DNA of 64,000 nt. Origin: Rhizobiales bacterium YIM 77505. GTDB taxonomy: Bacteria > Pseudomonadota > Alphaproteobacteria > Rhizobiales > Beijerinckiaceae. The stretch covers positions 1,178,001-1,242,000 of the forward strand of contig JQNH01000001.1 in the NCBI GenBank assembly GCA_000745135.1, in the 5' to 3' direction. Below the pieces are notes generated by a model, which was given only the letters and a program-made list of their open reading frames with translations, was not told the origin of the DNA and ran no database searches. Positions within the stretch are counted from its first letter, which is position 1. Each line of letters begins with the position of its first letter. Shown piece by piece: positions 17,196 to 19,433 of the stretch. The translations under genes were made by a program, and so were the position numbers.

Positions 17196-17804
17196 TCAGC
17201 GGCCCCAACTGGCGACCTGAAAGAGCCGGTCGGAGCCGATTTCGGCGGAATCCTCGTAGCCGAGAAGCTCGATGAGCCGCGTCCGTGCCCGATTGACGCG
17301 GCTCTTGATGGTCCCGACCTTGGTGCCGCAGATCTGGGCGGCTTCCTCGTAGCTGAAGCCCTCGGCGCCGATCAAAAGGATCGCCTCCCGCTGGTCCGGG
17401 GAGAGCTTGCCGAGCGCCAGGCGGAAATCCTCGAATTCGAGGCGCCCGCCCTGTTCAGGGATGCTCGAGAGACGGGCGGCCAAGGCGCCGTCCGCGTCCT
17501 CCACTTCACGCCGCCGCTTGCGGTAGTTGGTGTGGAACTGGTTGCGCAGGATCGTGAACATCCAGGCCTGGAGGTTGGTGCCCGGCTGGAACTGATCGAG
17601 ATAGCTCAGCGAGCGGACGATCGTGTCCTGGACGAGGTCGTCGGCCTGTTCCACCGTGCCCGTCAGGGATATGGCGAAAGCGCGCAGGTGCGGCACCGCC
17701 TTGAGAAGGGCCGTCCGCAATTCGCCATCGAGGGGCTTCGGCCGTCGGTCCTCCTTCTGGAGATCCAATGACCTCTCCCGTCGCGGCGCTTGCGTTGTCG
17801 TCAT
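17196..17804 (-). CDS. ECF sigma factor, EcfG-like (general stress response type)
   Basis: A 202-residue extracytoplasmic-function sigma factor. Region 2 is [20 protein letters not shown] through [20 protein letters not shown]. Region 4 is [20 protein letters not shown], then [20 protein letters not shown]; this wording is typical of the EcfG/ECF15 group that runs the alphaproteobacterial general stress response. A GGAAC-N17-CGTT promoter match just upstream supports this and suggests autoregulation. I chose ATG 17804 over the in-frame GTG at 17837 because the GTG lies almost at the predicted transcription start. The usual partners NepR and PhyR are not in the window. Confidence 0.9.
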
Positions 17805-17847
17805 GACTGCCGTCCCGACCCGCCGCTCATGCGGCACCCCTTACCGC

Positions 17848-17873
17848 AACGCCGCTCCGGCAAGCCTTGTTCC
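17848..17873 (-). promoter_or_regulatory. EcfG-type promoter upstream of the sigma factor gene
   Basis: On the minus strand GGAAC (17869-17873) is followed by exactly 17 bases and CGTT (17848-17851). This is the published general-stress-response promoter pattern of alphaproteobacteria (GGAAC, 16-18 bases, CGTT). It lies about 44 bp upstream of the sigma ATG at 17804. Confidence 0.6.
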
Positions 17874-17913
17874 GCGCCGATCGACTTCGCTTCTCTTGAC
17901 TTGGGTGCGCTCT

Positions 17914-18045
17914 CGCGCCAGAGCCGTCGTCCATGGGATGCAGGGCCCTCCACCTCCGATGCCGATCCTGTGCCGCTGGGGCGCGATCGCGACGACGCAC
18001 GCCTGACGTCCGTCCGTGAGCCGCGCCAGCCGCGGCTTCTTTGTT
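17914..18045 (+). promoter_or_regulatory. Candidate transcription attenuator in the argC leader
   Basis: AGCCGCG (18019-18025), a CCAGC loop and CGCGGCT (18031-18037) followed by TCTTTGTT form an intrinsic terminator about 72 bp upstream of argC. The octamer CGCGCCAG, which covers most of the terminator's left arm and loop (18022-18029), also occurs at 17914-17921. Between the copies, CTGGGGCGCG (17976-17985) can pair with either one. That is the 1-2 / 2-3 / 3-4 pairing logic of an attenuator. An open frame ending TGA at 18004-18006 with GTG 17905 as a possible start crosses segment 1 and has Arg codons at positions 2, 4 and 6. No clear promoter or ribosome site was seen for it. Confidence 0.45.
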
Positions 18046-18116
18046 GCTTGATCCTCAAGCATTGTGTTGCGGCCGCACCGCGCCATATCGGTGGCAGGAG
18101 GCCGCGGGAGACACCC

Positions 18117-19082
18117 ATGCCAACCACCCTGAACAGCCAGAGGGCGACCACCAAAGCGGCTTCCGTCTTCATTGACGGGGAGGCGGGCACCACCGGCCTT
18201 GGCATTCGGGACCGCCTGCTGACGGTCGAGGGCGTCGCCATCCGGAGCATCGCTCCAGAGCGGCGCAAGGATCCGGCGGCGAAGAGATCACTTCTTGCGG
18301 AGGTCGATCTCGTCATCCTGTGCCTGCCGGACGAGGCCGCTCGGGAGACGGTGGCCATGGTAGACGAACTGGGCCCCGCCGGACCTCGGATCCTCGACGC
18401 TTCGACGGCGCATCGCGTGGCGCCCGGCTGGGTCTACGGCTTTCCGGAGCTGGCCCCGGGGCATGCACAAGCCATCGCCGCCGCGCGGCGGGTGGCGAAC
18501 CCCGGCTGCTATCCCACGGGGGCGATTGCCCTCATCCGGCCCCTCGTCGATGCAGGTCTTTTGCCCAGCGACTACCCCGTCACCATCAATGCGGTGAGCG
18601 GCTACAGCGGGGGAGGTCGCTCCATGATCGAGGCCTACGAATCGGGCAGCGCGCCGGCCTTTGAGCTCTACGGCCTCGGCCTGGAGCACAAGCATGTGCC
18701 CGAGACCATGGCCTATGCCAAGCTCACCCGGCGGCCGATCTTCGTTCCGTCGGTCGGCAATTTCCGGCAGGGAATGCTGGTGAGCGTTCCGCTTCATCTC
18801 GACACGCTCCCCGGGCGGCCTTCGCCCCGCGACCTCGAGGCGGCGCTTGCGGAGCGTTACCGGGGCTGCGATCTCGTCCGCGTTGTTCCGACGCTCGCCG
18901 AGGGCAAGCCGGTGCAGCGGCTCGAGCCCGAAGCGCTCAACGACACCGACAGGCTGGAACTGCGCGTCTTCGGCCACGAGGCGCACGCCCACACGCTTCT
19001 CGTCGCCCGCCTCGACAACCTGGGAAAAGGCGCGTCCGGCGCCGCCGTCCAGAATGTCAAGCTGATGCTGGGGCTGGCCTAA
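18117..19082 (+). CDS. argC: N-acetyl-gamma-glutamyl-phosphate reductase
   Basis: NADPH-dependent enzyme that reduces N-acetylglutamyl phosphate to the semialdehyde, step 3 of arginine synthesis. The 321 residues fit the shorter type 2 ArgC. The nucleotide loop is [13 protein letters not shown]. The active-site cysteine is in [14 protein letters not shown], and the substrate-site histidine is probably in the GLEHKHVPE segment. ATG 18117 has GGGAG at 18106-18110. The region upstream carries the attenuator-like structure, and a degenerate intergenic repeat follows the stop. Confidence 0.95.
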
Positions 19083-19433
19083 GGCTACCCACCTCTCCCA
19101 AGAGGAGAGATCGCGCCGAAGGGCGGCAACGTGCTTCACTTCTCCCAGAGGGAGAGGTCAAGTGCGCGGCCGTGCGCTGCGTAAGGGGCGAGCCCTGTCC
19201 GGACATCGAGGTTCGGTGCCAATTTGCGCTTGTGGTTTGGCACTATCTTCTCCACACCCTCCCCCTCTTTCCCGGATGCGTGGAGCGCCTGAAAGGCGCG
19301 GAACGCAGTCCGGGGCGGAAGCGCAAGGACTCCGCTGCGCAGCAGCGCCGCTTCGGCGCGACCTCCTGAAAGGAGAGGCGAGCGGCGGCGCGGCTGCGCC
19401 TCACCTCTCCCGAGCGGGAGAGGTCGCCACGGC
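19083..19433. repeat. Intergenic palindromic repeat cluster between argC and the FAH-family gene
   Basis: No gene is supported in this convergent 351-bp gap. It holds short inverted repeats of the CTCTCCC...GGGAGAG kind near 19090-19110, 19141-19158 and 19402-19424. It also holds a longer piece (about 19255-19360) whose reverse complement recurs at about 58551-58645; CTTTCCCGGATGCGTGGAG at 19267-19285 is an exact inverted copy of 58610-58628. These are typical non-coding repeats of GC-rich Hyphomicrobiales genomes. Confidence 0.75.

Follow-up and report, generated by a model that had tools for sequence, protein, structure and literature searches.

An arginine-codon leader and terminator upstream of argC in alphaproteobacteria: a probable family of transcription attenuators, and one copy that has lost its stop codon

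Background

In Rhizobiales bacterium YIM 77505, an intrinsic terminator lies in front of argC, in the gap that separates this gene from a divergently transcribed sigma factor gene, and no gene is found close upstream of it on the plus strand. What such a terminator may serve for was asked by analyzing the locus within a stretch of 64,000 nucleotides (the window). The first-pass annotation had taken the terminator, a repeated octamer and a segment complementary to it for a transcription attenuator of argC, with arginine as the likely signal. The control of arginine synthesis in alphaproteobacteria lacking ArgR is not settled in the literature found, and an argC attenuator is a concrete and testable answer. 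ArgR (PF01316) was found in none of the 21 genomes searched, this genome included, while control genomes were positive; an arginine-sensing RNA device would therefore fill a gap.

Results

The terminator, both octamer copies and the complementary segment were recovered as annotated, all inside the gap (Table 1). The window terminator (18018-18038) was one of three matches in a scan of 2.4 kb, against 1.4 expected, and by itself is not significant, the density of the scan being near chance. The region had also been proposed for folding, and the 17890-18050 RNA proved no more stable than shuffles (z = +1.32). The significance of the element comes from its conservation in relatives, because terminator and fold alone stand at chance level. 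On the minus strand, a GGAAC-N17-CGTT sequence resembling an EcfG promoter is found 5' of the ECF sigma factor gene (17848-17873); it is weak by itself, as three sites of this type occur in the window against 0.85 expected.

Table 1. Features of the argC leader region and flanking genes in the window
Feature	Position	Strand	Remarks
Sigma factor gene (ECF)	17199-17807	minus	divergent from argC
-35 element TTGACT, leader promoter	17896-17901	plus	37 nt 5' of leader ATG; homology with relatives
Octamer CGCGCCAG	17914-17921 and 18022-18029	plus	
-10-like CAGAGC	17919-17924	plus	promoter alignment; relatives mostly CATANN
Leader ORF, start ATG 17933	17933-18019	plus	8 Arg in 28 codons; homologous leaders in relatives
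Arg control codons CGA-TGC-CGA (RCR), segment 1	17957-17965	plus	aligns with RRR of relatives
Complementary segment CTGGGGCGCG	17976-17985	plus	
Segment 2, GGCGCG, putative antiterminator arm	17980-17985	plus	pairs with 18022-18027; conserved just before the stop
Codon 21, CGA	17993-17995	plus	stop TGA in relatives (G001, others); stop lost here
Intrinsic terminator (segments 3 and 4, T-rich tail)	18018-18045	plus	hairpin -13.3 kcal/mol; 7 U in 9 nt
Terminator arms	18019-18025 (AGCCGCG), loop 18026-18030, 18031-18037 (CGCGGCT)		followed by TCTTTGTT
argC, N-acetyl-gamma-glutamyl-phosphate reductase, TIGR01851 type; regulated gene	18117-19082	plus	401.7 bits, cut-off 229.85

A single common module was found 5' of argC in Microvirga, Bosea, Chelatococcus and others. 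It is made up, in this order, by a TTGACA promoter, an AUG about the expected transcription start, a leader some 20 codons long that contains an Arg cluster (RRR, RR or RCR), a stop and, 22-31 nt further, a GCCGCGCC/GCGCGGC terminator. In a genome of the same genus (G001), argC lies behind an unrelated collagen-like gene and the module is kept, with promoter TTGACG-N17-CATACG, an ATG 6 nt on, the leader MAPTSALRCRPAAAPARSR followed by a stop, and terminator GAGCCGCGCCCAGCGCGGCTTTTTCTT. The same layout is seen in Microvirga, Bosea, Chelatococcus and one Rhizobiales MAG, MTTNPTRRRSEQAAPARPR and MSQSLVIIRRRMTAAPARVR, each followed by a stop, being examples of the leaders. Many argC-bearing relatives are without the module.

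A survey of the sequences 5' of argC throughout the family yielded a table of thirty-seven leaders, the window included. They vary in size from 12 to 28 codons, all have RR, RRR or RCR, and their Arg content, counting one leader per genus, is 27%. The first Arg of the main cluster is almost always CGA, and the cluster is separated from the stop by 30-39 nt. In relatives an intrinsic terminator resides between leader and structural gene, and the distance from stop to terminator is 22-31 nt in all but two of the leaders, the window being one of these exceptions. In each of 34 relatives TTGAC occurs 35-38 nt 5' of the leader ATG (1.6% expected, over 17 nt); by the usual promoter spacing, transcription should start at or beside the leader AUG. 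Likewise, trpL of S. meliloti is leaderless, its transcript beginning at or next to the AUG (PMC10117765).

A covariance model (R1) made from 34 relatives, the window left out, matched the window at 17919-18045 with 49.5 bits (E = 1.4e-12), the next-best match in the window scoring 12.8 bits. Of the family's 397 genomes, 113 had matches above 45 bits; they belong to at least 14 genera. Outside the order, 385 genomes of the class yielded four matches, scoring 72-90 bits; three lie at argC and one at argD. In the loci fetched, strong matches lie 5' of TIGR01851-type argC, or of TIGR01850-type argC in genus g54 (L246-L260) and in G023 (L285), so that the leader does not go with one type of ArgC only. 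Two strong matches, in two families, precede argD (acetylornithine aminotransferase): G660 has the leader at argC in addition, and G784 is a genome from outside the order. Of the matches of about 27-40 bits that were inspected, including a second one in this genome (C1:2258318-2258469), most proved to be ordinary terminators located after genes and devoid of Arg leaders. Rfam at gathering score gave tRNAs only in the window, and no match in ten related loci.

Conservation in relatives had been chosen beforehand as the test of the attenuator, and the finding of a conserved module, together with the R1 match, speaks for the attenuator of argC. Leaders with Arg codons 5' of both argC and argD likewise point to arginine as the signal. 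In one genome (G613, L244), an Arg leader, MSPYAINRRRQFENPARARGR followed by a stop, and a terminator precede a RidA-like gene rather than an arginine gene; the RidA-like gene was identified by eye, no NCBIfam match being obtained at the cut-off used.

In most leaders the best partner of the 5' arm of the terminator is located 9-18 nt 5' of the stop. For the duplex formed there by segments 2 and 3 the mean is -13.1 kcal/mol, whereas dinucleotide shuffles give -7.7 +/- 0.6. The proposed pairing of a segment with the terminator is thus retained, at 17980-17985 with 18022-18027, and is conserved in relatives. In relatives antiterminator and terminator would be mutually exclusive, and a ribosome at the stop would mask the antiterminator arm; covariation is thin. 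Pairing of the Arg cluster (segment 1) with the region from the stop onward was 0.46, against 0.19 +/- 0.05 in shuffled sequences, and the hairpin so formed would be the one opened by a stalled ribosome. The RNAalifold consensus is essentially the terminator. As to the compensatory changes looked for in the paired segments, one terminator pair is A-U instead of G-C in 10 of 36 sequences. Antiterminator columns are nearly invariant and most terminator columns do not vary, which limits the support from covariation. The relatives, moreover, do not count as independent samples.

The usage of Arg codons sets leaders and structural genes apart. The 189 Arg codons of the leaders are 84 CGA, 71 CGC, 24 CGT, 8 CGG and 2 AGG; the 582 found in argC at the same loci are 271 CGC, 241 CGG, 36 AGG, 25 CGT, 6 AGA and 3 CGA. 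CGA accordingly makes up 44% of Arg codons in leaders and 0.5% of those in the neighbouring argC genes. Bacteria decode CGU, CGC and CGA with tRNA-Arg(ACG); this set accounts for 95% of leader and 51% of argC Arg codons (Fisher p = 1e-31), and for 91% with one leader per genus (p = 2e-13), both p values being optimistic because the sequences are related. The CGA located directly 5' of TGA adds to the CGA count, and may serve RNA pairing too. From this bias the tRNA isoacceptor that serves as sensor can be predicted.

Two other readings of the Arg cluster were dropped. Cysteine was considered as the signal, RCR being found in the window and G001; this fits neither the RRR of most relatives nor the identity of the genes, argC and argD. 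The cluster might also encode the C-terminal end of ribosomal protein S9, a frequent upstream neighbour of argC; this was discarded because several Microvirga have a separate terminator 5' of the leader promoter.

The window copy features leader ORF, Arg codons, antiterminator arm and terminator, as judged with a model that excludes it, and departs from the family in three points: stop codon, -10 and partner of segment 1. Since the conserved TGA is CGA here, the ORF reads on to the TGA at 18017-18019, onto the terminator, and the distance from stop to stem is 0 nt, against 22-31 nt in relatives. The placement of the stop that keeps the terminator clear of the ribosome is thus lost. The longer leader acquires a second Arg run (codons 18 and 20-22). 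The -35 of the leader promoter is in place; its -10 looks weak, because CAGAGC replaces the CATANN of most relatives. Segment 1 also lacks its post-stop partner, which in G001 is CGGC.

Two parts of the initial proposal have to be moved. The leader frame drawn from GTG 17905 lies in the putative promoter, the leader supported by homology being Arg-rich, in a different frame, and located at 17933-18019. Segment 1, placed at 17914-17921, falls between the likely -35 and -10; it is best taken as promoter DNA, because homology puts the -35 at 17896-17901, the -10 near 17919-17924 and the start near 17933.

Discussion

The Arg-rich leader gene and terminator found 5' of argC in many alphaproteobacteria are probably an arginine-sensing switch. 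We put at roughly 80% the probability that they form a conserved family of ribosome-mediated transcription attenuators, which make expression of argC, or in certain species of argD, depend on the availability of charged arginyl-tRNA. Promoter, near-start AUG, Arg cluster, stop, antiterminator arm, terminator and arginine gene are all present; from this anatomy we infer ribosome stalling, switching and a response to arginine. When arginine is scarce, the ribosome would stall on the Arg cluster, barring segment 1 from the hairpin with the post-stop region; segment 2 (GGCGCG) would then pair with segment 3 (CGCGCC), the terminator would be blocked and argC transcribed. When arginine is ample, the ribosome at the stop would mask segment 2, and the terminator would form, leaving only a leader RNA of about 110 nt.

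In the window copy, with CGA in place of the stop, the ribosome would run into the terminator, and arginine repression is therefore predicted, for this single genome, to be weakened or lost; the leader may no longer be switching. In Salmonella, moving the stop of the speF leader downstream abolished arginine control (PMC6386406), and weakened or lost attenuation is predicted for the window copy on this ground also. The same result, along with the distance of 0 nt and the weaker -10, makes it doubtful that the family is an arginine attenuator of which the window copy still works, the second Arg run adding control and the ribosome clearing the new stop in time, although ATG, Arg cluster, segment 2 and a terminator of -13.3 kcal/mol are retained and the copy scores 49.5 bits. 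A leader having lost its stop is a natural test of how the position of the stop codon matters.

The main product might instead be a small RNA that acts in trans and has its 3' end at the terminator, like rnTrpL of S. meliloti, control of argC being secondary. A leader RNA of the size expected here would suit it, and a dual function, as attenuator and as sRNA, has been described for rnTrpL (PMC10117765); the strong linkage to argC and argD and the conserved antiterminator pairing suit control in cis and render this unlikely, the two readings being compatible rather than exclusive. Still less probable is a uORF sensing poor translation in general rather than arginine, as at the DUF1127 gene of S. 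meliloti: an attenuating uORF leader answering translation inefficiency is known in the class (PMC12218461), and CGA is rare in these genes, but the Arg clusters and the attachment to two types of argC and to argD indicate arginine. That the hairpin is a plain terminator, or the product of chance, with no regulatory role, is scarcely credible. Such a reading would suit the chance-level density of terminator-like sites and the unremarkable fold; it is disfavoured because the module is conserved, terminator, promoter, leader and argC being found together across genera despite different upstream genes, and in the window no plus-strand gene close upstream would need terminating.

Beyond the attenuators themselves, we slightly favour a wider picture, in which leader-peptide attenuators rather than a repressor run the arginine regulon: leaderless, associated with both types of argC and with argD in several alphaproteobacterial orders lacking ArgR, relying largely on CGU/CGC/CGA codons read by one isoacceptor, and with feedback having decayed in lineages, such as the present one, whose leader has lost its stop.

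In the open literature no attenuator of bacterial arginine biosynthesis was found, an earlier description in older subscription literature being possible; the kind is absent from both Rfam and the open literature searched. The fungal arginine attenuator peptide, an arginine-responsive upstream ORF 5' of an arginine gene, is only an analogy to the argC leader, and differs in acting on translation, in eukaryotes, through arrest of the nascent peptide. Among precedents, the rhizobial trp attenuator, the speF Arg-codon leader and the cysS uORF motif come closest. The S. meliloti trp attenuator (trpL, rnTrpL, peTrpL), and the trp type generally, likewise combine a short leaderless ORF with control codons, an attenuator RNA and a biosynthetic gene (PMC10117765), featuring Trp codons and trpE where the argC family has Arg codons and argC or argD. 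The speF leader of Salmonella (orf34, DUF2618) also senses arginine by consecutive Arg codons, and the position of its stop matters (PMC6386406); unlike the argC family, it controls ornithine decarboxylase via RNase G-dependent mRNA decay and Rho, whereas the argC family features a different peptide and an intrinsic terminator 5' of an arginine gene. The speF-leader core HIRR is found in none of the 37 leader peptides, and the module resides 5' of argC or argD, not speF. The uORFC-8-2 motif of cysS in Rhodobacterales is likewise an alphaproteobacterial uORF attenuator proposed by comparison, with stalling at Cys codons and read-through (PMC8632094); it differs by its Cys codons, by the tRNA synthetase gene and by the order in which it is found.

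Further variation was observed around these genes. In the window, imperfect CTCTCCC/GGGAGAG stretches, possibly a dispersed repeat, were noticed by eye 3' of argC (19090-19170). Arg-rich ORFs directly follow the argC promoter at L158 (G136), L197 (G017) and L144 (G100), encoding MTTPIRIIRRRARR, MTTIRYRR and MSTRAALRRRRA, each followed by a stop; they have no canonical terminator, and may be an alternative use of the same sensor. A clear Arg leader was found at none of the argD upstream regions inspected in this genome and its relatives, and in most of them a hairpin directly follows the promoter. Several argD upstream regions (L300, L293, L289, L299, L305, L309, L314 and L317) have a TTGAC promoter closely followed by a GCCGCCC hairpin and a T-rich run; neither a leader ORF nor an Rfam match was seen in these regions, which may hold a separate control element.
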